Source: Lapillicoccus jejuensis (GTDB lineage Bacteria > Actinomycetota > Actinomycetes > Actinomycetales > Dermatophilaceae). From it: a stretch of 64,000 nucleotides of DNA. The notes beneath the pieces were generated by a model. That model was given only the letters and a program-made list of their open reading frames with translations. It was not told the origin of the DNA and ran no database searches. The translations under genes and the position numbers were made by a program. The stretch's first letter is position 1, and each line of letters begins with the position of its first letter. Shown piece after piece: positions 24,420 to 36,374 of this stretch. The stretch is taken from positions 1,612,001-1,676,000 of the forward strand of contig NZ_VFMN01000001.1 of assembly GCF_006715055.1 (NCBI RefSeq), read 5' to 3'.

Positions 24420-24677
24420 TTACCCGTAGTGATACCGGCAAGCAGCGATGCGGATCTCATCGCCCACGATCTTGTAGACGAGCCTGTGCTCATCGGTGAT
24501 GCGACGTGACCAGTACCCCGCGAAGTCGTGCTTGAGGGCCTCCGGCTTGCCGATGCCGCTGTTCCCGTTCCGGGTGATGTCTTCAACGAGGGCGTTGACC
24601 CGCTTGAGAACCCTGCGATCCTGGGCCTGCCACCACAGGTAGTCCTCCCAGGCGTTCTCGTCCCAGACGAGGAGCAC
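24420..24677 (-). CDS. yoeB: YoeB family ribosome-dependent mRNA interferase toxin
   Basis: 85 residues, GTG start one base after the antitoxin stop. Closely follows the YoeB pattern: WDENAWEDYLWWQAQDRRVL, GKPEALKHDFAGYWSRRI, DEHRLVYKI and the C-terminal CRYHYG. Catalytic residues of YoeB (Glu46 region, Arg65 in SRRITDEHRL, His and Tyr near the C-terminus) are all present, so it should be active. It cleaves mRNA at the ribosomal A site and is neutralised by YefM. Confidence 0.95.
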   Translation of the reverse strand: MLLVWDENAWEDYLWWQAQDRRVLKRVNALVEDITRNGNSGIGKPEALKHDFAGYWSRRITDEHRLVYKIVGDEIRIAACRYHYG

Positions 24678-24678
24678 G

Positions 24679-24936
24679 TCAGTCGGACTCCATCAGGTCG
24701 CGGCGCTCACCGCGTCCGGACTCGAGACGCTCCATCGCGTCGAGCAGACGGCGAGCGTTCGCGGGGGAGCGCATCAGGTAGGCGGTCTCCCTCAGCGACT
24801 CGTAGTCCTCGAGGGAGACGATGACGACCGACTCGTGACCGGCTCGGGTGATGACGACTTCCTCACGGTCATTGACCACCCCGTCAAGGACCTCCGCGTA
24901 CCGGGCGCGGGACTCCGTATAGCTCATGGTCTTCAT
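24679..24936 (-). CDS. yefM: YefM/Phd family antitoxin
   Basis: 85 residues. Opening MKTMSYTESRARYAEVLDGV is the Phd/YefM DNA-binding fold, with VVITRAGHESVVIVSLEDYESLRET in the middle and an acidic C-terminal tail for toxin binding. AGGAGG (complement of 24944-24949) precedes the ATG by 7 bases. A TGTACA-type operator lies directly upstream. It is first in the operon, with the toxin one base downstream. Confidence 0.95.
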   Translation of the reverse strand: MKTMSYTESRARYAEVLDGVVNDREEVVITRAGHESVVIVSLEDYESLRETAYLMRSPANARRLLDAMERLESGRGERRDLMESD

Positions 24937-25800: not shown

Positions 25801-25816
25801 GCGGGGAGTCTTCCCG

Positions 25817-25886
25817 ACCGGACATAGGAAACCCCACGTCCGGCCCGGGCGCGGCGCGTCAGGACGTGGGGTTCCCTGTGTCCGGT
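25817..25886. repeat. Repeated intergenic hairpin, family 1 copy B
   Basis: Arms 25817-25841 and 25861-25886, 2 mismatches in 25, same arm sequence as copy A at 6100-6169 (consensus begins ACCGGACACAGGGAACCCCA). Here it follows the last gene of the nine-gene minus-strand operon, supplies the stop codon of that gene and probably terminates the operon. Confidence 0.75.
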
Positions 25887-26683
25887 CGGCGGCGGGGACG
25901 GGCCTCGGCGACGATCGCGACGGTGTGGACCCGCCCGGTGTGCAGCCAGCGGCTCCACCGGCGGTGCGTCGTCACGAGGTGCCGGGCCACGAGGACGCCC
26001 GGCGCCGCGGCGGGTCGGGCGGCCAGCTCCTCGTAGGCGCGCAGCAGCGCCTCGACGACCTCGGCGTGCCGGGCCGTCGTCTCCTGGACCGAGACCGGGA
26101 CCAGCCCCGCCCGCTCGAGGTCGGTCAGCAGCGTCGCGAGCGGCGTGACCCAGACGGCCTCACCCGGCGGCAGCCGGCGCCGCTCGTCCCCCGTGAGGGG
26201 TCGACCCACCTCGGCCGTCACGACGAAGCGACCACCGGGGGCCAGCGCCCCGGCGACCGACCGCAGCAGCGTGGCCCGGTCGCGGAAGGCGAGCAGCGTC
26301 TCGAGCAGGAGCACGACGTCGTACGGACCCGGGGGCAGCGGCGGCACCGTGCCGACGACGAAACGCGCTGTGCCGCAGCCTCGCTCGACCGTCGCCACCC
26401 TCGCTCGGGCCACCGACACGGGGGACGCGTCCACCCCGAGGTAGTCGCCGCCGAGCTCGGTGACCAGGACGAGACCCGGGCCGCCGGTGCCGCAGCAGAC
26501 GTCGAGGACGCGGGTGCCGGGCCCGACGCCGGCGCGGCGGGCGAGGCCGAGCAGCTCGGTGCGCGGCAGGAAGCTCTCCTGGCCGACGAACTCGTCGGCG
26601 AGGGCCGCCGCCCGGGCCCGCCACAGGGCGTCGTACGCCGCCGCGGGGTCGGCGACCACGGTCTCCCGCTCGCGGGCGCTCAC
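25859..26683 (-). CDS. Class I SAM-dependent methyltransferase
   Basis: 274 residues from GTG 26683 (GTGA overlap with the preceding stop). Motif I VLDVCCGTGGPGLVL near residues 53-67, then YLGVDASPVSVARAR, and YDVVLLLETLLAF. The family resembles SAM methyltransferases acting on small molecules. Last gene of the operon 34732-25859. Its C-terminal PDTGNPTS is encoded by the family 1 repeat and is shared with the unrelated hydrolase ending at 6127, so that tail is probably not functional. Confidence 0.85.
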   Translation of the reverse strand: MSARERETVVADPAAAYDALWRARAAALADEFVGQESFLPRTELLGLARRAGVGPGTRVLDVCCGTGGPGLVLVTELGGDYLGVDASPVSVARARVATVERGCGTARFVVGTVPPLPPGPYDVVLLLETLLAFRDRATLLRSVAGALAPGGRFVVTAEVGRPLTGDERRRLPPGEAVWVTPLATLLTDLERAGLVPVSVQETTARHAEVVEALLRAYEELAARPAAAPGVLVARHLVTTHRRWSRWLHTGRVHTVAIVAEARPRRRPDTGNPTS

Positions 26684-29088
26684 CGCGGCCCCGCGGCCGG
26701 GCTGCTGAAGGTCGTGAGGACGCGGTCGCGCAGCGCGTCCATCCGCCACACCGGGGCCCCCGCACCCGGTCGCAGACCCGGCGTCCACCCCCAGCCCTCG
26801 ACCGCGCGCAGCACGGCCGGGTCGTGCGCGACGACGGTGACCGGGACGTCGTGCCCGGCCCCGGGACCCGTGACGACGGTCGACGGCTGGTGGTCGCCGA
26901 CGACGAGGACGACCAGGTCGTCGTCGTGCGCGGCGGCGACGAGGTCGACGACGCTGCGCAGCGAGTAGGCGACCGACGTCCGGTAGGCCGCCGGCACCTG
27001 CGACGGGTCCTGCCACAGCTGCGCCGCCGACCGGGCCCGCGCCGCGACCGGGCCGAAGACGCGGCCGTCGCCGAGCGTCTCCGCGGGCACGGTGGTCGGC
27101 AGCGGGGCCCACGGCGCGTGGCTCGAGGTCAGCTCGACCTGGGCCATGACGGGTGGGCCGCCTCGGCGTTCGCGCGGCGCGAGCTCGAGCCGCTGGAGGG
27201 CGGCGAGCGCGTACTGGTCGGGCATCGTCGAGAAGCCGAACGTCGGGCCGGCGTACCCGAGGTCGTCGCGGCCGTAGACCCGGTCGAACCGGTAGAACGC
27301 CCGACCCTGCGGCCAGCTGCCGACCGTCGACGGGACGACGGCGACCGTGCGCCAGCCGTCGCGGGCGAAGACCGACGAGAGGGTCGGGCGGGAGGAGGCC
27401 AGCAGGGCGTCGTACCGGCTCTGGCGGTCGACCCACAGTCCGGACTGGAGCGTGGAGTGCGCGAACCAGCTGCCGGCGCCGAAGGTGCTCGAGGTGAGCC
27501 AGCCGCTGCGCGCGCCGAAGCCGGCGGCGGCCAGCGTGCCCGTCGCCGCGTCGAGCTGGTCGCGCAGCGGCGCGCTCGCGTCGCCCTCGAGGGCGACCCG
27601 GCCGTAGCTCTCGACGACGACGAGCAGGACGTCCTTGCCGCGCAGCCCGGCGAGGTCGGTCGACGCGGCCGACCCCAGCGGGTCGTCGGCCAGCTCGCGC
27701 CGGAAGGTCGCCGCGTCGGCGAGGGCGGCGCGCGCGGAGGTCACCTCCGAGACGACGTACGGCGCCCCGTCGGCCGCGGCGAGCGACGTGCCCGCCGGCC
27801 CGCGGACCCCCGTCGCCGCGAGCAGCGCCCAGCCGGCTGCGGCCGCCGCGACGACGACCGCGGACCGGCGTCGCCGACGACCGGCGGCGCGGGCCGTCCG
27901 GGCGAGCGCCCACGGCGTGCCGAGGACGACGAGCGCGAGCAGCCCGACGACCGCGACCACCGCGCCGGCGGCCACGACCGGACCCTGCGAGTCGCGCAGG
28001 AAGGACAGGCCCGGTCCGAGCGACGACAGGTCGGTGACGACGTCGAACGGCCGGTCGAGCACCGCCGCGCTGCCGAGGTCGAGGAGCCGGGCGAGGACGA
28101 CCAGGCCGAGCCCGAGGCCGAGCACCGTGGCGACGGCGCGGCGCCACCGGTCGGGGGTGACGACGAGCGCCGCCGCGACCGCGACGGCCTCGACCGGGAG
28201 CCGCAATGTTCCGGCGAGGGACAGCCGGTCGGGTCGTCCCGGCAGGAGCAGGGCGCACCACGCCAGGACGAGGAGCGCGGCGGCCAGGACGTGGGCGAGA
28301 TTGCGGCGCAACGGGATGCGGCGGCGAGGCTCCGGTGCGGACGCATCGGGGGTCGGCGCGGCGGGGGCGCGCCGCCGCCACAGCCACAGCACGTCCCGGC
28401 CGAACGACTCGGCGAGCAACCCGAGGACGACGAGCCCGACGACCAGGGCCGCGGCCGACGGCAGCAGACCGGTGGCGAGGACGGTCAGCCCCACCCCGGC
28501 GGCGGCGGCGACGACTTTGCGCCAGTAGCGGAACGGCAGCGCCGCCCCCAGCCACGGCCGCGCCAGACCGGCGGCGCCGAAGGCGTAGCGCACCACCCCC
28601 GCGGCCACCAGCCACCACCCGGCGACCGACCCGGCGGCGACGCCGAGCACGAGGATGAGCGCCGCGTCGGTCTCCCCGTCGAAGCGTGCGCCGAACCGGC
28701 TGACCGTGCCCGTCCGGCGCGCGACCGGCCCGTCCACCGCGTCGAGGGCGAGCGCCATCGCGGCGGTCGTCACGAGCGGCGCGGTGACCGCGCGCCCGGT
28801 GAGCGACTCGGCGGTGAGCGCGGCGACCAGGCAGCCGAGCCCGGCGCGGGTGAGGGTGACGAGGTCGGCCGCGGACAGGCGGGTCCGTCCCGTGTGCTCG
28901 GCGCCGACGTCGACGAGGTGGAGCAGCACCGCGGCGGCCGTGAGCCCCACGACCCACCCGACCGGGCCGACCTGGCCCTCCCCGGCGAGCCCGACCTGCC
29001 CGAGGACGAGCAGGACGAGGGCGCTCACCCGGGCGGTGGTGACCGGGAGCCCGGCGGCGAGGCGTCCGACGGCCGCGGAGGCGGTCAC
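26680..29088 (-). CDS. CDP-alcohol phosphotransferase fused to sulfatase/LtaS-like domain
   Basis: 802 residues from GTG 29088. Residues 116-141 contain the complete CDP-alcohol phosphotransferase signature D-x2-DG-x2-AR-x8-G-x3-D-x3-D, in a membrane domain of several helices (1-235). A second set of helices (about 280-470) leads to an alkaline-phosphatase-superfamily domain (about 485-800) with VVVESYGR, a GSWFAHST segment and VGDHQPS, as in LTA-synthase-type phosphoglycerol transferases. The fusion suggests making and then trimming or transferring a phospho-alcohol head group at the membrane. GTGA overlaps on both sides place it firmly in the operon. Specific substrate unknown. Confidence 0.85.
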   Translation of the reverse strand: MTASAAVGRLAAGLPVTTARVSALVLLVLGQVGLAGEGQVGPVGWVVGLTAAAVLLHLVDVGAEHTGRTRLSAADLVTLTRAGLGCLVAALTAESLTGRAVTAPLVTTAAMALALDAVDGPVARRTGTVSRFGARFDGETDAALILVLGVAAGSVAGWWLVAAGVVRYAFGAAGLARPWLGAALPFRYWRKVVAAAAGVGLTVLATGLLPSAAALVVGLVVLGLLAESFGRDVLWLWRRRAPAAPTPDASAPEPRRRIPLRRNLAHVLAAALLVLAWCALLLPGRPDRLSLAGTLRLPVEAVAVAAALVVTPDRWRRAVATVLGLGLGLVVLARLLDLGSAAVLDRPFDVVTDLSSLGPGLSFLRDSQGPVVAAGAVVAVVGLLALVVLGTPWALARTARAAGRRRRRSAVVVAAAAAGWALLAATGVRGPAGTSLAAADGAPYVVSEVTSARAALADAATFRRELADDPLGSAASTDLAGLRGKDVLLVVVESYGRVALEGDASAPLRDQLDAATGTLAAAGFGARSGWLTSSTFGAGSWFAHSTLQSGLWVDRQSRYDALLASSRPTLSSVFARDGWRTVAVVPSTVGSWPQGRAFYRFDRVYGRDDLGYAGPTFGFSTMPDQYALAALQRLELAPRERRGGPPVMAQVELTSSHAPWAPLPTTVPAETLGDGRVFGPVAARARSAAQLWQDPSQVPAAYRTSVAYSLRSVVDLVAAAHDDDLVVLVVGDHQPSTVVTGPGAGHDVPVTVVAHDPAVLRAVEGWGWTPGLRPGAGAPVWRMDALRDRVLTTFSSPAAGPR

Positions 29089-29780
29089 GCCGGCCACCGC
29101 TCGTCGTCGTCGCGCTCGTCGACCGCCCCGTGGTCCAGCGCTGCGGGCGCCTCGCCGAGCACCCCCAGGGTGTGGCCGCCGCGGGCCTTGGTCGCGAGGT
29201 ACCGGGCGTTGTCGGGGGACCAGTGCACACCGGTCGCGACGCTCGCGCGGACCCGGATCCCGAGGGCGCGCAGCTGGGCGGTCTTGTCGGGGTTGTTGGT
29301 CAGCAGGTCGACCTCGGGCGCGCCCAGGGCGAGCAGCATCTGCGCGGCGACGGTGTAGTCGCGCGAGTCGGCGGGGTGGCCCAGGGCGAGGTTCGCCTCG
29401 TAGGTGTCGAGGCCCTCGTCCTGCAGCGCGTACGCGTCGAGCTTGGCGTAGAGCCCGATCCCGCGACCCTCCTGCCGCAGGTACAGCACGTGCCCGCCGG
29501 CGTCGGCGACCCGCTCGACGGCCTCGCGCAGCTGCGGGCCGCAGTCGCACCGCCGGCTGCCGAGCACGTCGCCGGTGAGGCACTCGCTGTGCAGTCGCAC
29601 GACGGGGGTACGGCGCCGCGTCGGCCCGCCGAGGGTGAGGGCCAGGTGCTCACGCCCGTCGACGAGCCCGGTGAAGCTGCTGACGCGGGCCGTGGTGCGG
29701 TACCCGTCGGGGAAGCGCAGCGGCACCTCGACCGTGGTCCGCACGGCGGCGGGCGGGGGGACGTCGGGACGGGTGCTCAT
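29085..29780 (-). CDS. ribA: GTP cyclohydrolase II (RibA-type)
   Basis: 231 residues. Zinc cysteines HSECLTGDVLGSRRCDCGPQL (core C-x10-C-x-C), catalytic QEGRGIGLYAKL and TNNPDKTAQLRALG are all intact, so it should open GTP to 2,5-diamino-6-ribosylamino-4(3H)-pyrimidinone 5'-phosphate with formate loss. It lacks the fused RibB domain found in many riboflavin enzymes and no rib operon is nearby, so this looks like a second, dedicated copy supplying the product of this operon. ATGA/GTGA overlaps with both neighbours. Confidence 0.92.
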   Translation of the reverse strand: MSTRPDVPPPAAVRTTVEVPLRFPDGYRTTARVSSFTGLVDGREHLALTLGGPTRRRTPVVRLHSECLTGDVLGSRRCDCGPQLREAVERVADAGGHVLYLRQEGRGIGLYAKLDAYALQDEGLDTYEANLALGHPADSRDYTVAAQMLLALGAPEVDLLTNNPDKTAQLRALGIRVRASVATGVHWSPDNARYLATKARGGHTLGVLGEAPAALDHGAVDERDDDERWPA

Positions 29781-30490
29781 CGGTCGGCACCTCCGGGGCC
29801 GTCGAGGTCGAAGCGGTCGGACAGCGCGTAGCGCAGCAGGACGACGTCGCCCAGCCGACGCACCTCGCGCAGGTCGGCGCGGCGGTCGCGGTGCCACGGC
29901 AGCCGACCGTCGGCGACCACGCGGTGGGCGCCCGGCTCGGCGACGAAGAACGGGGCGACGACGACGTGCAGCTCGTCGGCGAGCGACCCGGCCAGCAGCT
30001 GGGTGTGCACCTGCTGGCCGCCCTCGACGAGCAGCCGGCGCACTCCCTGCTCGGCGAGGTCGGCGAGCACCCAGTCCATCGACGGGTGCCGGCCGGCGGC
30101 GACGACCCGGGCCCGACCCGCGAGCCGGGTCCGCGTCTCGCGGGCGACCGCGAGCGGGCAGTAGACCGATGCGCCGCCCTCGCCCGGCGCGAACAGCGCC
30201 GCGGTGGGGGACAGGTCGGCGTGCCGGGTGACGGTGACCCGGTGCGGGGTCGCGGGGCGGCCACTGGCGGTGCGGGCGGCGCGCCGTCGCGGCTCGCGCA
30301 CCTGCAGGCGCGGGTCGTCGGCGCGGACGGTCCCGGCGCCGACGAGGACGGCGTCGCAGGCGGCGCGGACGGCGTCGACGCGGTCGAGGTCCTCGGGGCT
30401 GGAGAGCACGAGCCGGCGGCCGGAGGTGTCGTCGAGGCACCCGTCGAGCGACGCGGCCCAGCTGAGGACGGTGTACGGGCGGTCAGGCAC
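29777..30490 (-). CDS. RibD C-terminal-type pyrimidine reductase
   Basis: 237 residues from GTG 30490. A stand-alone reductase domain of the RibD/DHFR fold: VLSWAASLDGCLDD, CDAVLVGAGTVRADDPRL (NADPH contact), and RRLLVEGGQQVHTQLL. The deaminase half of bifunctional RibD is absent. With the RibA next to it, it would reduce the ribose of the GTP-derived pyrimidine to a ribityl chain, as in archaeal and fungal riboflavin synthesis. Overlaps the upstream flippase gene by 8 bases. Confidence 0.9.
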   Translation of the reverse strand: MPDRPYTVLSWAASLDGCLDDTSGRRLVLSSPEDLDRVDAVRAACDAVLVGAGTVRADDPRLQVREPRRRAARTASGRPATPHRVTVTRHADLSPTAALFAPGEGGASVYCPLAVARETRTRLAGRARVVAAGRHPSMDWVLADLAEQGVRRLLVEGGQQVHTQLLAGSLADELHVVVAPFFVAEPGAHRVVADGRLPWHRDRRADLREVRRLGDVVLLRYALSDRFDLDGPGGADR

Positions 30491-31469
30491 GGGCGGTCTC
30501 CTCCTCGACGGGGGCCGCAACGGGCCGTACGGCGCCCCGTCGGCCCCGTCGGCCCCGTCGGCCCCGTCGGCCCCGGGTCGCGACGACGAGCAGGCCCGGA
30601 AGCGTCGCCGCGAGCCCGAGGGCGCCGTACGCCACGGCGACGGCGAGCCCGGTCGCCGGGGACAGCCCGACGGTGGTGAAGGCCCACGCGGCGGCGCCCT
30701 CGCGCGGCCCCCAGCCGGCGACGTTGATCGGCAGCCCGCCGGCGAGCAGGACGAGCAGCACGGGGCCGAGGAGCCGCGGCGACGGCGCCACCCCGACCGC
30801 CCGCGCGGCGAGCAGGAGCGTCGCGACGTGCGTCGCGAGGACGGCGAGCGAGAGACCCGTGAGCGCGGCGACCGTCCGCGGCGCGGCGAGGGCCCGCAGG
30901 TCGGTGCGCACCACCGCGACCGCCGGACGCCCCCGCCGCCGTACGGCGCCCCGGACCCACCAGGCACCCGCCGCGACCAGCGCCGCGGCGCCGACGACCT
31001 CGAGGACGGTGCCCGACCCCCGCCGGACCGCCACCGCGGTCAGCGCCGGCAGCGCGCACAGCGCGAGGACCACCTGCCCGGCGCTGCGTTCCCAGACGAC
31101 GGCCCGCAGCCCGCGGGCCACGTCGTCGGCGGCCCGGCCCTGCCGGACGGCGCGGCCGACGTCGCCGACCACCCCGCCGGGCAGCACGGAGTTGAGCAGC
31201 TGCGCGCGGTAGCACTCGGCCACCGCGCCGCGCCACGCCAACGGCAGGCCCAGGCGGTCGGACACGACCCGCCACCGCAGGGCGGCCAGCGCCGTCCCGA
31301 CCGCGCCGACGGCGACGGCCGCGGCGACGGTGGCCGGGTCGACCGACCTCAGCCCCCGCCCGGCGGCCGACGGCCCGACCGCGACGACGACGGCCACGAG
31401 GACGACGACCCCGCCGATCACGGACCACCCGGGTCGGTCGGGTCGGTCGGGTCGGCGCCGCCCGGTCAC
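30483..31469 (-). CDS. Flippase-like membrane protein (UPF0104/LPG synthase TM region family)
   Basis: 328 residues from GTG 31469. About eight transmembrane segments with the family motifs RWRVVSDRLGLPLAWRGAV, LLNSVLPGGVVGDVGRAVR and AGGLPINVAGWGPREGAAAW. Such proteins act as lipid or glycolipid translocators or as regulators in envelope synthesis. The C-terminus carries a low-complexity RGRRGRRGRRG tract encoded by a 9-base tandem repeat. GTGA overlap with the methyltransferase upstream. Confidence 0.85.
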   Translation of the reverse strand: MTGRRRPDRPDRPGWSVIGGVVVLVAVVVAVGPSAAGRGLRSVDPATVAAAVAVGAVGTALAALRWRVVSDRLGLPLAWRGAVAECYRAQLLNSVLPGGVVGDVGRAVRQGRAADDVARGLRAVVWERSAGQVVLALCALPALTAVAVRRGSGTVLEVVGAAALVAAGAWWVRGAVRRRGRPAVAVVRTDLRALAAPRTVAALTGLSLAVLATHVATLLLAARAVGVAPSPRLLGPVLLVLLAGGLPINVAGWGPREGAAAWAFTTVGLSPATGLAVAVAYGALGLAATLPGLLVVATRGRRGRRGRRGRRGAVRPVAAPVEEETARA

Positions 31470-32299
31470 CGCTCCTCCCGCGGCCCGGCCAGCAGGTCGG
31501 CGTGCCCGACGCTCGCGCGCAGCCGGCCCTGGGCGGTCTCGGTGCGGCGGCGGGTGAGGTAGGCGGCGGCCTGCCGGGCCAGTCCGGGCTCGTGCTCGAC
31601 GGCCGCCCCGACCCAGCCCTCGAGCCAGGCGAGCAGCAGCGCGGACCCGCCCGGCTCGTCCGGCCCGAGCCGCCAGGGGGACGGGGTGACGTGGACCTCG
31701 CGCCCGGCCGCCTCGAGGAGCGCGGTCGCCCGGGTCGGCGCGTCGGGTCCGAGCAGCGGTCCCCGGGGCGAGACCCGGCGCTGGTGGTCGTCGAAGGCGA
31801 CGGCGAGGACGGCGTCGAGCGGGTCGTCGGGCGCGAGCCGGACCCTGCCGGTCACCGACAGCGCGAGCAGCAGCGGGCACCCGGGGGCGAGGGCCGCCCC
31901 CAGCAGACCCTCGAGCTCGTCGGCGGTGAGCAGGTCGAGCAGCGCCGACGTCGCGACGAGGTCCGCGCCGGCCAGCGCGCCCGCGTCGAGCGCGGCGACG
32001 TCGTCCACCCGCGTCGACACCTCGACCGGCCCGTCGGCGATGGGCGGTCGCTCCTCGGCGAGCGTCAGCAGGTCGGCGTCGATGTCGTGCAGGACCCACC
32101 GTTGGCGCCCGCCCAGCAGCGGGGCCAGCCACCGCCCGAGCGACCCGTCGCCGCTGCCGAGGTCGTGCACGACCGCCACGGCGTCGGACGGCAGCCACCC
32201 GCGCAGCCGCTCGACGAGCTCGACCGACCGGGCCGCCGCGTCGGCGGGCTCGCGCAGCCGCAGCCACGACGGGGCGACCCGGGTGCGCAGCGCGGTCAC
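31466..32299 (-). CDS. Class I SAM-dependent methyltransferase
   Basis: 277 residues from GTG 32299. Motif I VVHDLGSGDGSLGRWLAPLL (core DLGSGDGSLG, about residues 49-58), then VLHDIDADLL and DLVATSALLDLLTADEL. Resembles trans-aconitate/O-methyltransferase-like proteins, substrate unknown. It sits between the glycosyltransferase and the flippase genes with GTGA overlaps at both ends, so its target is likely the glycosylated intermediate of this operon. Confidence 0.87.
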   Translation of the reverse strand: MTALRTRVAPSWLRLREPADAAARSVELVERLRGWLPSDAVAVVHDLGSGDGSLGRWLAPLLGGRQRWVLHDIDADLLTLAEERPPIADGPVEVSTRVDDVAALDAGALAGADLVATSALLDLLTADELEGLLGAALAPGCPLLLALSVTGRVRLAPDDPLDAVLAVAFDDHQRRVSPRGPLLGPDAPTRATALLEAAGREVHVTPSPWRLGPDEPGGSALLLAWLEGWVGAAVEHEPGLARQAAAYLTRRRTETAQGRLRASVGHADLLAGPREER

Positions 32300-33351
32300 G
32301 CCGCCACCCCCGCGGCGACGTCGGCGAGGACGGCGTCGACGGCGTGCGCCGTCGTGTCCCAGCCGGCGAGGTGGTCGCGGCGACGCCGCGCGCGGTCGCG
32401 CCAGCGGGTGCGCCGTCCGGCGTCGGTGAGCCAGCCGAGCAGCGCCGTGGCGAGCGCGTCGGGGCCGGCGGGGACGAGGGTGCCGGGCCGGCCGTCGGGG
32501 GTCGTGCCGAGCGCCTCGGGCAGCCCGCCGACGGCGCTGCCGAGCACCGGCACCCCGTGCCCGAGCGCCTCGGTGACGACCAGCCCGTAGGTCTCGACCC
32601 GCGACGGCACGACGAGCAGGTCGGCGCCCGCCCACGCCGCGTCGAGGTCGGCGCCGGCGAGCGGTCCGGTGAGGGTGACGCGGCCGGCGAAGGCGGCGGC
32701 GCGGCGCCGTACGTCCTCGGCGAAGGCGGGGTCGACGTCGGTGGAGCCGACGATCCGCGCGCTCCAGTCGCGCCGGCCGCGGTCGTCGAGCCGGGCGAGC
32801 GCGTCGAGCAGGACGTCCTGGCCCTTGACCGCCGTCACCGCACCGACGCACAGCAGCCGGCCGCCGGGCCCGTACGGCGCGACCGGCGCGCGGTCCGCGC
32901 CCGGCAGCGCCACCCGCACCCGGTGCGGTTCGAGCCCGTACGACGTCTCCAGCCACCTCGCCGTCCACCGGCTCGTCGTGACGACCGCGTCGACGGCGGC
33001 GAGGACGGCCGACTCGACCCGGACGACCGGTGACCGCGGGTCGGCGCCGACCCCGAGCGGGAGGTGGACGATCACGACGAGGCGCAGCCGCCCCCGGTGC
33101 TCGAGCACCGCGAAGGGCGCTCCGCCGGCGAGCAGGCCGTCGACGACGGCGACCGCCCCGTCTGGCAGCCGGCCGAGTGCCACCTCGAGCGCGACGTCCG
33201 CGCCCGGCCAGGGCCCGGGCACCGGGTCGACGACGACGGTGCGGCCGAGCGCGGTGAGGCTGGCCGCGAGCCGGCGGTCGTAGGTGTTGCCGCCGCTCGG
33301 CCGGCGCGGGTCGTCGACGCCCTGGGGGACGACGAGGTGGACGGTGCTCAC
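32296..33351 (-). CDS. Glycosyltransferase family 4
   Basis: 351 residues, GTG start. GT-B fold: N-terminal LVVPQGVDDPRRPSGGNTYD, linker segment VTTSRWTARWLETSYG, VGAVTAVKGQDVLLDAL, and the donor-binding ESx7E region VETYGLVVTEALGHGVPVLG. Retaining GT4 enzymes move a sugar from a nucleotide donor to a lipid or small-molecule acceptor. In this operon it follows the PTPS-like gene with a 4-base overlap. Donor and acceptor cannot be read from the sequence. Confidence 0.92.
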   Translation of the reverse strand: MSTVHLVVPQGVDDPRRPSGGNTYDRRLAASLTALGRTVVVDPVPGPWPGADVALEVALGRLPDGAVAVVDGLLAGGAPFAVLEHRGRLRLVVIVHLPLGVGADPRSPVVRVESAVLAAVDAVVTTSRWTARWLETSYGLEPHRVRVALPGADRAPVAPYGPGGRLLCVGAVTAVKGQDVLLDALARLDDRGRRDWSARIVGSTDVDPAFAEDVRRRAAAFAGRVTLTGPLAGADLDAAWAGADLLVVPSRVETYGLVVTEALGHGVPVLGSAVGGLPEALGTTPDGRPGTLVPAGPDALATALLGWLTDAGRRTRWRDRARRRRDHLAGWDTTAHAVDAVLADVAAGVAA

Positions 33352-33746
33352 AGCGGTCGCTCGTAGGAGGCCGACGCGACGTGCGACTCGTGCAGGACGA
33401 CCCGCACGCCCGCGAGCCGCGCCGGGTCGGTGCCGAGGTCGCCGCCGTGGGCGCGCTCGACGAGCCGGTCGGCGACGACCTGCGCGAGCCGCTCGGTCGT
33501 CGTCAGCACGCCCGCGAGCGACGGCTCGTCGTCGAGGTTGCGCATCGTCAGTCCGGCGAGCACGTCGTGCAGGACGTCGGCCGCGCGGGCGATGTCGACG
33601 ACGACGCCGAGGTCGTCGAGCTCGGCCGCGCTGATCGTCGCGTCGACGACGTACGTCGCGCCGTGCAGCCGCTGCGCCGGACCGAAGGCCTCCCCGGGCA
33701 GGCTGTGGGCGATCATCATGTGGTCGCGCAGGGTCACGCCGAACAC
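33348..33746 (-). CDS. PTPS-fold protein (6-pyruvoyl-tetrahydropterin synthase-like), active site altered
   Basis: 132 residues from GTG 33746. The fold is recognised from LRDHMMIAHSLPG, RLHGATYVVDATI, VVVDIARAADVLHDVLAGL, MRNLDD, TTTERLAQVVADRL and the final HESHVASASY (Glu/His). However the usual HGH zinc pair is HGA, and the catalytic Cys in the preceding loop is missing (FGPAQRLHG). So it may bind a pterin-like ligand or catalyse a different step from QueD or PtpS. 13-base overlap with the dehydrogenase, 4-base with the glycosyltransferase. Confidence 0.82.
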   Translation of the reverse strand: MFGVTLRDHMMIAHSLPGEAFGPAQRLHGATYVVDATISAAELDDLGVVVDIARAADVLHDVLAGLTMRNLDDEPSLAGVLTTTERLAQVVADRLVERAHGGDLGTDPARLAGVRVVLHESHVASASYERPL

Positions 33747-34732
33747 GGGTCCTCCTCGTCGTAGCGGATGGTGTGGCACAGCGCCGGCAGCCGGCCGTCG
33801 GTGAGCCGGGGCAGGACGTCGGGCAGGTCGGCGAAGGGCGACTCGCCGGTGAGCAGCCCGTCGAAGGCCGGGTCGTCGAGCAGCCGCAGCGCCAGCTCGA
33901 GCCGGTCGCGGGTCGTGCGTCGCGTGCGGCGGACGGGCGAGACGGCGCCGACCTGGCTGGCGCGGACCGCGAGCCGACCGCTGTGGAACCGGCCGCCCAG
34001 CCGGAGGGTGACGGGCGCGTCGCCGTACCAGCTGAGGTCGAGCACCTCCCCCTCGTCGCCGAGCAGGTCGAGCGCCAGCTGGAGCCCGGCCGAGGTGGCG
34101 CTCGCGTGGACGACGAGGTCCTGCCCGCCGTCCGCGTCCTCCGGGACCGCGAACCGCGCGCCGAGCCGGGCGGCGACGTCGGCCCGCTCGGGCCGGACGT
34201 CGACCACGGTGACCTCCACCCCCGGCAGCCGCGCGAGCAGCCGCGCCGTCGCGAGCCCGACCATCCCGCCCCCGACGACGGTGACCCGGTCGCCGACGAG
34301 CGGGGCGGCGTCCCACAGCGCGTTGACCGCCGTCTCGACCGTGCCGGCGAGGACGGCCCGCCGGGCCGGGACGCCGTCGGGGAGGGGGACGACGGCGGCG
34401 GCGGGCACGACGTACGCGCTCTGGTGCGGGAACAGGCAGAAGACGTCGCGGCCGAGCAGGGTCCGCGGGCCGCGCTCGACGCGGCCGACGCTGAGGTAGC
34501 CGTACTTCACCGGGCCCGGGAAGTGCCCGTCCTGGAACGGTGCTCGCATCCGCTCGGCCTCGCCGGGGGGCACCCGTCCGGCGAAGACGAGCGTCTCCGT
34601 GCCGCGGCTGACCCCGGTGTGGGTCGTGCGGACGAGGACGTCGTCGGGTCCGGGCTCCGGGAGGGGCACCGTGCGCAGCTCGCCGACGCCGGGCTCGCGC
34701 AGCCAGAACGCCCTGGCCACCAGGTGGGTCAC
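33734..34732 (-). CDS. Zinc-type (MDR) dehydrogenase, BchC-like; first gene of operon
   Basis: 332 residues from GTG 34732. Medium-chain dehydrogenase: HTGVSRGTETLVFAG in the catalytic domain, then Rossmann VTVVGGGMVGLATARLL and VTVVDVRPERADVAARLG. The first-shell Cys of typical zinc alcohol dehydrogenases is replaced by the SRGTE motif, as in BchC-like members, so it may be zinc-free. Likely oxidises or reduces a side-chain alcohol of the pathway intermediate. It starts the tightly overlapping operon running to 25859. Confidence 0.85.
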   Translation of the reverse strand: MTHLVARAFWLREPGVGELRTVPLPEPGPDDVLVRTTHTGVSRGTETLVFAGRVPPGEAERMRAPFQDGHFPGPVKYGYLSVGRVERGPRTLLGRDVFCLFPHQSAYVVPAAAVVPLPDGVPARRAVLAGTVETAVNALWDAAPLVGDRVTVVGGGMVGLATARLLARLPGVEVTVVDVRPERADVAARLGARFAVPEDADGGQDLVVHASATSAGLQLALDLLGDEGEVLDLSWYGDAPVTLRLGGRFHSGRLAVRASQVGAVSPVRRTRRTTRDRLELALRLLDDPAFDGLLTGESPFADLPDVLPRLTDGRLPALCHTIRYDEEDPCSA

Positions 34733-34848: not shown

Positions 34849-35700
34849 ATGGAGAGCGGCGACCTCACCCTGGCCGACGGACGCACCCTGCACTGGTACG
34901 ACGCCGGCGGCGACGGCGCGCCCGTGGTCTGGCACCACGGCACCGGCAACACCGGCGAGCCGCCGCAGCCGCTGCTCGCCGGGGCGGCGCGCCGCGGGCT
35001 GCGGTTCCTGGGCCTCGACCGGCCGGGGTACGGCGGCTCGACCCCGCTCACCGGGCGCGACGTCGCCGAGGCGGCCCGGCTGACCCAGGCGCTCGCCGAC
35101 CACCGCGGGCTGGGGCGGTTTGCCGTCCTCGGGCACAGCGGCGGCGGGCCGCACGCGCTCGCCTGCGGCGCGCTGCTCGGCGACCGGGTGACCGCGGCGG
35201 TGTCGGTCGCCGGGCCGGCGCCGCTGGGGCCGGTCGCCGCCGAGGGCCGCGACTGGTACGCCGGTTTCGCGCCGTACGGCGCCGCGTCGCTGCGAGCGGC
35301 GGAGCAGGGTCGCGCCGCGCGGATGGCCTACGAGGAGTCGGGCGCCGACGACGACTTCGGCTTCCTGCCCTCGGACGAGGAGGCGCTGCGCGGCGAGTGG
35401 TCGTGGTTCCTCACCGTCGTGCGCAGCGGCAACGCCAACGGTCCCGGCCCATCGGTCGACGACGACCTCGCGACGGTCACCGCCTGGGGGTACGACGTCG
35501 AGGACGTCGCCTGCCCGACGCTGCTCGTCCACGGCGCCGAGGACCGGGTCGTCCCCGCCGCGCACTCGCGGTGGCTGGCCCGGCACGTGCCCGGTGCGCA
35601 GCTGTGGGAGGAGCCGGAGGTCGGCCACCTCGGCGTCCTCGTCCGGCGGGGGGACGACGTCCTGGGATGGGTGCAAGCCCAGGCGCCGGATTCTGAGTAA
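34849..35700 (+). CDS. Alpha/beta hydrolase
   Basis: 283 residues. VVWHHGTGNTGEPPQPLL oxyanion region, LDRPGYGGSTP, nucleophile elbow VLGHSGGGPHAL (Ser about residue 101), acid LVHGAEDRVVP and base His in EVGHLGVL: a complete catalytic triad. Broad-specificity esterase/peptidase-like enzyme; substrate unknown. Last codons run into the operator of the antitoxin gene that follows. Confidence 0.9.
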   Translation: MESGDLTLADGRTLHWYDAGGDGAPVVWHHGTGNTGEPPQPLLAGAARRGLRFLGLDRPGYGGSTPLTGRDVAEAARLTQALADHRGLGRFAVLGHSGGGPHALACGALLGDRVTAAVSVAGPAPLGPVAAEGRDWYAGFAPYGAASLRAAEQGRAARMAYEESGADDDFGFLPSDEEALRGEWSWFLTVVRSGNANGPGPSVDDDLATVTAWGYDVEDVACPTLLVHGAEDRVVPAAHSRWLARHVPGAQLWEEPEVGHLGVLVRRGDDVLGWVQAQAPDSE

Positions 35701-35718
35701 GAACGGTACGATTCTTAC
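35697..35718. promoter_or_regulatory. Operator/promoter of AbrB-PIN toxin-antitoxin genes
   Basis: GTAAGAA (35697-35703) and TTCTTAC (35712-35718) form a perfect 7-base inverted repeat immediately upstream of the antitoxin start, the only AT-rich patch here. A further GATTCTGA upstream repeats half of it. Fits autoregulation by the antitoxin-toxin complex. Confidence 0.65.
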
Positions 35719-35722
35719 CGTG

Positions 35723-35947
35723 ATGGTGACGGACAAGGGGCAGGTGACGATCCCCAAGCACCTGCGGGACGAGCTGGGCATCGGGCCAGGCACCTCGGTC
35801 GAGTTCGAGCTCGAGGGGGATCGCCTGGTCGTGCGCAAGGCCGTGGACCGTCCCAGCCGAGGACAGCGCCTCGTCGAGCGGATGCGGGGACGGGGCGATG
35901 TGTCCCTGACGACCGACGAGATCATGGCGCTCACCCGGGCCGACTGA
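35723..35947 (+). CDS. AbrB/MazE-type antitoxin (VapB-like)
   Basis: 74 residues from ATG 35723; GTG 35720 also fits. Swapped-hairpin AbrB DNA-binding opening VTDKGQVTIPKHLRDELGIG with VEFELEGDRLVVRK, then a C-terminal toxin-binding tail (RGDVSLTTDEIMALTRAD). One base separates its stop from the PIN toxin gene. Neutralises the toxin and represses the operon. Confidence 0.92.
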   Translation: MVTDKGQVTIPKHLRDELGIGPGTSVEFELEGDRLVVRKAVDRPSRGQRLVERMRGRGDVSLTTDEIMALTRAD

Positions 35948-35948
35948 C

Positions 35949-36374
35949 GTGGAGACGCTCGTCGACAGCAACGTCATCCTCGACGTGTTCACCGACGACC
36001 GAGTGTGGGGTGACTGGTCGGCGACGGCCTTGGCCCAGGCCGCGGACCGAGGCCCGTTGATCATCAACCCCATCATCTACGGCGAAGTGTCCACGCGATT
36101 CGTCCGCGTCGAGGACCTCGACGACGCGCTGCCGGCTGAGGGTTTCCGACGCGACGCGCTGCCCTGGGACGCAGCGTTCCTGGCCGCCAAAGCCTTCGCC
36201 GACGACCGACGGCGCGGAGGCATCCGCACCTCCACGCTCCCTGATTTCCTCATCGGTGCCCACGCAGCGGTGCGAGGGTTCACCCTGCTGACGCGGGACG
36301 TCGCCCGGTATCGGACGTCCTACCCCACGGTGGCGCTGATAGCGCCGCGCGCGGAAGGTCGATCCTCGTCCTGA
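35949..36374 (+). CDS. PIN-domain ribonuclease toxin (VapC-like)
   Basis: 141 residues, GTG start. Acidic PIN residues are intact: LVDSNVILDVF (first Asp), NPIIYGEVSTRF (Glu), LPDFLIGAHAAV (Asp) and LLTRDVARYRTSYP (Asp), so the Mg-dependent RNase site should work. Paired with the AbrB-type antitoxin. Third-codon GC is lower than in the flanking housekeeping-like genes, compatible with horizontal acquisition. Confidence 0.93.
   Translation: METLVDSNVILDVFTDDRVWGDWSATALAQAADRGPLIINPIIYGEVSTRFVRVEDLDDALPAEGFRRDALPWDAAFLAAKAFADDRRRGGIRTSTLPDFLIGAHAAVRGFTLLTRDVARYRTSYPTVALIAPRAEGRSSS

Follow-up and report, generated by a model that had tools for sequence, protein, structure and literature searches.

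The first two enzymatic steps of riboflavin biosynthesis, catalyzed by RibA and Rib7/RibD, are shared, by family and motif, with a cluster of nine overlapping genes in Lapillicoccus jejuensis, located in a stretch of 64,000 nt (the window; contig NZ_VFMN01000001.1, positions 1,612,001 to 1,676,000). However, this cluster lacks the deaminase and the later riboflavin enzymes, and the two early enzymes come together with enzymes of glycosyl and methyl transfer and of the membrane. Specialised metabolites can start from riboflavin-pathway enzymes, as does toxoflavin in Burkholderia, and we know of no phosphotransferase, flippase or PTPS-fold partner in either the toxoflavin pathway or that of the plant metabolite vicine. 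Vicine shares with the cluster the start from a riboflavin-pathway enzyme, which is described as VC1 (PMC12202586).

Three further systems bear on the remaining genes. The PTPS/QueD family (COG0720) and the second gene product, g2, have in common the fold and, close to the C-terminus, a conserved Glu, whereas the catalytic Cys, the second His of the HGH motif and the triad His are absent from g2. Streptomyces coelicolor SCO6650 matches g2 over its whole length, but the Streptomyces type of cluster combines a RibA lacking the Tyr equivalent to E. coli Tyr105 (non-Tyr) with a creatininase-family gene, whereas the window has a Tyr-type RibA and a linked RibD_C reductase and, unlike the SCO6650-SCO6655 region, a phosphotransferase fused to a sulfatase-fold domain. 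As with the PgsA/LtaS pair, a CDP-alcohol phosphotransferase accompanies a membrane sulfatase-fold domain, here in the one chain of g8; the nearest fold by TM-score is that of a phosphatidylglycerophosphate (PGP) synthase, yet the sequence similarity is weak.

We lean, a little beyond even, towards the view that the cluster encodes a dedicated branch of specialised metabolism that leaves the pathway before riboflavin and leads to a decorated, exported or membrane-linked product. The gene set is found across many Actinomycetota and some Proteobacteria, partly on plasmids, and it apparently uses a riboflavin precursor to make a compound that is exported or linked to the membrane. If true, this would provide a role for the SCO6650 PTPS-fold family and for extra RibA copies that are usually counted as riboflavin enzymes. 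No description of the cluster or its product was found in the literature searched, with most subscription papers beyond its reach. The sequence-only reading, made from the letters of the window, proposed a candidate undescribed pathway, but not every component is new, given that the structure of SCO6650 has been solved and SCO6655 carries an annotation as GTP cyclohydrolase II.

Organization and conservation of the gene cluster

The nine co-directional open reading frames (ORFs) occupy the minus strand from 34732 to 25859, and neighbours overlap at all eight junctions, by 4 to 13 nt, which confirms the overlapping operon seen in the sequence-only reading. The features are as follows:

33734..34732, minus: g1, medium-chain dehydrogenase, BchC-like, 332 aa (Pfam, NCBIfam, AlphaFold2 model)
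33348..33746, minus: g2, PTPS-fold protein without the PTPS catalytic residues, relative of SCO6650 (PDB 3d7j), 132 aa
32296..33351, minus: g3, GT4 glycosyltransferase, 351 aa (Pfam, NCBIfam)
31466..32299, minus: g4, S-adenosylmethionine (SAM) methyltransferase, weak Pfam match, 277 aa
30483..31469, minus: g5, flippase-like multi-pass membrane protein, LPG_synthase_TM, 328 aa (Pfam, NCBIfam)
29777..30490, minus: g6, RibD_C reductase without a deaminase domain, 237 aa (Pfam, NCBIfam)
29085..29780, minus: g7, RibA-type GTP cyclohydrolase II that keeps the counterpart of E. coli Tyr105, 231 aa
26680..29088, minus: g8, fusion of a CDP-alcohol phosphotransferase (N-terminal) and a membrane-anchored sulfatase-fold domain (C-terminal), 802 aa
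25859..26683, minus: g9, SAM methyltransferase, accessory, 274 aa (Pfam)
25815..25888, minus: terminator-like hairpin without a T-run, overlapping the end of g9 (folding energy compared with shuffles)

From g1/g2 through g8/g9, the overlaps measure 13, 4, 4, 4, 8, 4, 4 and 4 nt; an alternative GTG start of g2 at 33737 would reduce the first one from 13 to 4 nt. Eight of the nine genes start with GTG and RibA (g7) with ATG, whereas the stop codon is TGA throughout. Pfam and NCBIfam agree with the gene names given earlier, with the match of g4 slightly under the cut-off. Stronger evidence than the overlaps that the nine genes form a unit is their conservation.

A scan with 21 PTPS-like sequences across one genome per species (84,980 species) retrieved at least 576 relatives, and the loci of the best 80, some of them cut by contig ends, were compared with the window proteins by tblastn. 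The genes g1, g2 and g3 were each found at all 80 loci, g5 at 71, g8 at 69, g4 at 62, g7 at 57, g6 at 49 and g9 at 7. Profile searches of 86 loci (these 80 and six plasmids) detected g2 at 86, g1 and g3 at 85 each, g5 at 74, the N-terminal half of g8 at 73, g4 at 69, g7 at 59, g6 at 54, the C-terminal half of g8 at 35, a creatininase-family gene at 25, g9 at 7 (with one weak match) and a cytochrome b gene at 2. Hence, g9 is an accessory gene. In Knoellia sinensis, the same nine genes occur in the same order, with overlaps of 4 to 8 nt at six of the eight junctions and 4-nt gaps at the other two (start codons chosen by hand). Among 396 sampled genomes of Actinomycetota, 34 contain a match at E <= 1e-20; 19 of these matches exceed 190 bits, and the 15 weaker ones possibly belong to other PTPS families.

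Matches were also present in 21 plasmid records, six of which were examined. The Agrobacterium plasmid pAt carries nearly the same set, namely, genes for the dehydrogenase, the PTPS-like protein, GT4, the methyltransferase, RibD and RibA, as well as phosphotransferase, flippase-like, sulfatase and cytochrome b genes. RibA is missing from a Microbacterium plasmid, and a plasmid of S. fungicidicus shows the Streptomyces gene arrangement. The core genes reside on large plasmids in the Alphaproteobacteria Methylosinus OB3b (L115) and Agrobacterium (L116), a location that suggests horizontal spread. A cytochrome b561-type gene lies inside the cluster in two Proteobacterial plasmids, L114 and L116. 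On a plasmid of S. anthocyanicus (L118, 9001-9426), a PTPS-like gene of the same family, lacking the cluster, sits beside MEKHLA- and cupin-domain genes; this lone gene counts against obligatory linkage.

The co-occurrence of the genes was analyzed in 97 whole genomes (that of L. jejuensis and 96 relatives), 29 of which were counted as carrying g2; a thirtieth, G006, had a weak match and was dropped. Since related genomes are not independent, the Fisher p-values have to be read with this limit: g1 is present in 30 genomes, 29 of them shared with g2 (p 7e-24), g8 (either half) in 25, with 24 shared (p 8e-17), and g6 in 13, with 12 shared (p 8e-7). The sole exception for both g6 and g8 is G035, an assembly of 760 contigs, and only the sulfatase half of g8 was found in G035 and G037. 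The phosphotransferase half is present in 23 of the 29 g2-bearing genomes and in none of the 68 others. This association is not only a matter of physical linkage because, in G063, g2 and the phosphotransferase gene are located on different contigs, each longer than 200 kb. The distribution of the cluster is patchy, given that g2 is absent from both congeners, and fits gain by transfer or repeated loss.

Enzymes of the cluster

The product of g7 matches PF00925 with 183.7 bits (cut-off 23.3) and NF001591 with 247 bits, above the cut-off of 148, whereas the 182 bits for TIGR00505 are below the cut-off of 206. With this family match, the three zinc cysteines of the SEC/CDC motif and the catalytic Tyr aligned to E. 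coli Tyr105, g7 is predicted to be a GTP cyclohydrolase II. In g6, PF01872 was detected with 120.6 bits and Pfam found no deaminase domain; the residues of the motifs that we take to be SxDG, TxxxDxPxL and EGG are at least 97% conserved across 55 rows, which identifies g6 as a RibD_C protein, whereas its score against TIGR01508 (114.5 bits) is below the cut-off of 186. The nearest solved chains by sequence are 5xv5/5xux, presumably archaeal Rib7.

A second RibA is encoded in the same genome, in a separate riboflavin locus at about 4.339-4.344 Mb that contains genes for ribulose-phosphate epimerase, RibD with its deaminase, a lumazine-binding riboflavin synthase, a PnuC-type protein, RibBA and lumazine synthase. 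Thus, g7 and g6 are not the only riboflavin enzymes in the genome; had they been, this would have spoken against the sequence-only reading. Its proposal of a branch that starts from GTP, apart from the riboflavin operon, gains support. According to Pfam, no deaminase, 3,4-dihydroxy-2-butanone 4-phosphate synthase, lumazine synthase or riboflavin synthase is encoded among the nine genes. A second riboflavin operon was considered and rejected: the later enzymes are missing here, and the complete set lies elsewhere in the genome. From what is known of the families, g7 and the deaminase-free g6 probably convert GTP to DARoPP (2,5-diamino-6-ribosylamino-4(3H)-pyrimidinone 5'-phosphate) and then to DARiPP: RibA would open GTP to yield DARoPP, and g6 would reduce the ribosyl chain to ribityl without deamination, so that the 2-amino-4-oxo ring would be kept.

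The RibA proteins of the relatives fall into two types. Among 60 rows (59 loci and the window), 37 have the Tyr, and a creatininase-family gene accompanies none of these. The 37 are the window, searched from 23500 to 43900, and 36 loci, of which 32 extend for 7 kb or more to either side. The remaining 23 have Met (14), His (7), Gln (1) or Cys (1) at this position, and a creatininase-family gene is present in all 23. Many independent events were rejected as the source of this correlation because on the tree the RibA type changes twice and the presence of creatininase four times, and the independent pairs are too few for a test; the pattern is one or two natural swaps. The Streptomyces RibA, SCO6655, reportedly stops at the formamide intermediate. 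The creatininase-family enzyme BrbF is described as deformylating this intermediate to DARoPP (PMC9478397); therefore, by analogy, the Tyr-type RibA and the pair of non-Tyr RibA and creatininase could converge on DARoPP. The only creatininase-family protein examined, that of L113, matches PF02633 with 218 bits, and no BrbF model is among its NCBIfam matches. As for the reductase, 14 genomes were surveyed, ten of them creatininase-bearing. In eight of these ten, a g6-like reductase (49-54% identical) is encoded outside the locus; in L041, the gene is inside, and in S. natalensis there is just a divergent g6-like gene, also inside. In the Pseudonocardia acidicola cluster (L037, 14049-15233), RibA and RibD_C are fused in one open frame; this fusion falls in a clade whose RibA-bearing rows mostly have the creatininase-associated type of RibA.

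The g2 protein matches SCO6650 (PDB 3d7j) over its full length with an E-value of 4e-44 and carries the FGPAQ.LHGAT signature, so that it belongs to the SCO6650 subfamily. All four alignments, with 1b66, 2g64, 3i2b and 4ntk, show other residues in g2 at the second His of HGH and at the His of DHxNLD. The catalytic Cys of PTPS is replaced in comparison with 1b66 and 2g64, whereas the alignment with 3i2b stops short and 4ntk has Ala. With the catalytic Cys, one zinc His and the triad His replaced, the identity of a PTPS/QueD enzyme (COG0720) was rejected, and g2 scores under the cut-offs of the PTPS/QueD equivalog models of NCBIfam. In the sequence-only reading, g2 could help to shape a side chain; a PTPS-type side-chain reaction is unlikely because active-site residues have been lost. 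Conversely, Glu120, which we take to be the ring anchor of the PTPS fold, is conserved in at least 97% of 87 rows. The structure paper on SCO6650 is said to report neither zinc nor PTPS activity. The function of the PTPS-V subfamily is described as unclear (PMC5041015). No other PTPS-family gene than g2 was found in the genome, and in PHROGs g2 had a single weak match, QueD-like, whereas RibA had no match.

For g1, the best NCBIfam model is bchC, but the score of 53.6 bits is far from the cut-off of 291.25 and does not make g1 a BchC. Its AlphaFold2 model (mean pLDDT 87) has the medium-chain dehydrogenase/reductase fold, with threonine, alcohol, xylitol, butanediol, sorbitol and idonate dehydrogenases as nearest folds; the usual zinc-ligand motif was not seen by eye. 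The Pfam methyltransferase match of g4 (25.3 bits) is slightly below the cut-off of 27, and profile searches returned only generic methyltransferases. An anti-phage defence system was also considered and rejected, since PADLOC returned only mads_2, to which the methyltransferases g4 and g9 matched.

The phosphotransferase half of g8 matches PF01066 with 37.8 bits (cut-off 22) and has an intact DxxDGxxARx8GxxxDxxxD motif, the residues of which are at least 97% conserved in 73 rows. The model of this domain (pLDDT 94) is closest to the PGP synthase 7drk, with a best TM-score of 0.63/0.70. By motif and modelled fold, g8 is thus a predicted class I CDP-alcohol phosphotransferase. The chain also contains further membrane helices and the sulfatase-fold domain, whose motifs suggest a likeness to LtaS. 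In many relatives, the two halves are separate pieces.

Proposed pathway and alternative explanations

The order and the chemistry of all steps after DARiPP are what we infer from the gene functions, and so is lipid linkage. With its Glu retained, g2 would bind the pyrimidine, the polyol-dehydrogenase-like g1 would oxidise the side chain, and the GT4 enzyme (g3), the methyltransferase g4 and, in this species, g9 would decorate it. The N-terminal phosphotransferase of g8 may join the product to a phosphatidyl group or link it to lipid in another way, the flippase-like g5 would carry it across the membrane, and the C-terminal sulfatase-fold domain of g8 would remodel it outside. Where clusters lack RibA, the housekeeping enzyme would supply DARoPP.

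A product linked to the membrane is suggested by three kinds of gene, those for the CDP-alcohol phosphotransferase, the flippase-like protein and the sulfatase fold. Of the lipid-linked or exported product that had been predicted from the sequence, the membrane component is therefore supported, whereas the lipid linkage is conjecture, for which we put the chances at somewhat less than even. In its specific form, a lipid-linked conjugate or a phospholipid with a glycosylated, methylated ribityl-diaminopyrimidinone as head group, it appears rather unlikely. In that case, the PGP-synthase-like phosphotransferase would use DARiPP, a phosphorylated polyol, as its acceptor, and transfer of the phospho-head group outside the cell would fall to the sulfatase-fold domain, in parallel to PgsA and LtaS; in Streptomyces, the conjugate would belong to aerial hyphae and spores.

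Several observations weigh against a dedicated branch with a membrane-linked product. RibA is absent from 27 of the 86 loci. Among the 64 well-flanked loci, which extend for 7 kb or more to either side, 14 lack RibA and 20 lack RibD_C (16 of the 20 bear creatininase), while 6 are without the phosphotransferase, 5 without the flippase-like gene and 11 without g4. Being missing from 14 and 20 of the well-flanked loci, the first two enzymes are usual, not universal, neighbours. The gene set and order are conserved in relatives, which supports the sequence-only reading, but not for RibA at the 14 loci where it is unlinked, nor for g9, with its 7 occurrences. On the Thiodictyon plasmid, neither RibA nor a flippase was found, and the Methylosinus plasmid carries only g1-g4 and RibD. 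The association of RibA and creatininase amounts to about two changes of RibA type, and the NCBIfam scores of the L113 protein (MftE 141, creatininase 100 and ArfB 37 bits) are all below cut-off. For the phosphotransferase, the Foldseek E-values are weak (the best, 0.009, to a serine transferase), and the evidence does not favour a lipid over a CDP-activated soluble alcohol as substrate.

An alternative product is a secreted, soluble pyrimidine or pterin glycoside that would work in the manner of vicine or of bacterial pterin glycosides, with the membrane genes serving export and envelope housekeeping, which we regard as unlikely, if the most serious competitor. The most constant core, present at 80 of the 80 loci, consists of the dehydrogenase, the PTPS-like protein and GT4, the membrane genes are absent at a few loci (Methylosinus L115, Xenophilus L106), and vicine provides a plant parallel for a route that enters from a riboflavin enzyme. 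But the presence of the phosphotransferase half in 23 of 29 g2-bearing genomes against 0 of 68 others, and of the flippase-like g5 at 71 of 80 loci, exceeds the needs of export. Pterin synthesis, in which g2 would either work like PTPS/QueD or close a ring on DARoPP before glycosylation of the pterin, is improbable. It would account for the PTPS fold, for the conserved Glu120 and for the absence of RibD_C from some clusters, and DARoPP is chemically en route to pterins in the mechanism of GTP cyclohydrolase I. Yet the replaced Cys and His residues of g2 speak against it, the Amadori step could not proceed once g6 had carried out its reduction, and none of the nine genes matched GTP cyclohydrolase I in Pfam. 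A second riboflavin supply or a flavin-secretion module, built from paralogous early enzymes, appears very improbable: RibA and RibD_C do belong to riboflavin enzyme families, but the deaminase and later enzymes are encoded elsewhere in the genome, and no part in flavin synthesis is known for the rest of the cluster.

The Streptomyces counterpart and the flanks of the operon

In the Streptomyces loci, the gene order is CDP-alcohol phosphotransferase, g1, g2, g3, g4, g5, creatininase and RibA. By count, this order, read from Streptomyces relatives, would fit SCO6650-SCO6655. With SCO6650 as g2 and SCO6655 annotated as GTP cyclohydrolase II (PMC2853524), SCO6652 would occupy the position of the g4 methyltransferase. 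SCO6652 is listed among the conserved genes of unknown function with the greatest differences from one mycelial stage to another, with log2 values of 0.8, 4.3 and 4.1 at 24, 48 and 72 h (PMC3610822). SCO6655 appears in a group of genes whose expression is anticorrelated with the predicted flux and, for the majority, goes up in stationary phase (PMC2853524). Together, these two listings suggest that the product of the cluster is tied to differentiation rather than growth. In the available text of a study on Streptomyces synteny, a term search found no mention of the cluster genes (PMC13118837).

At the downstream end of the operon, the hairpin at 25888-25815 has a folding energy of -56.8 kcal/mol (z -6.35), which none of 200 shuffles equalled; a scan for a T-tailed terminator and a sigma-70-type promoter gave no match. 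A gene for a short-chain dehydrogenase/reductase (SDR) follows g9 after a gap of 58 nt. Because the strong hairpin overlaps the end of g9, the SDR gene is probably outside the unit; SDR-type matches occur at just 6 of the 80 related loci. Downstream of the SDR gene, at 24670-24935 on the minus strand, a small ORF resembles, by eye, a YefM/Phd-type antitoxin (MKTMSYTESRARYAEVLDGV...) and may begin a toxin-antitoxin pair. On the other side of the operon, an alpha/beta-hydrolase-like gene is divergent from it and precedes, at 35594-36374 on the plus strand, a small AbrB-like ORF and a PIN-domain-like ORF (VapC-type), both likewise recognized by eye.

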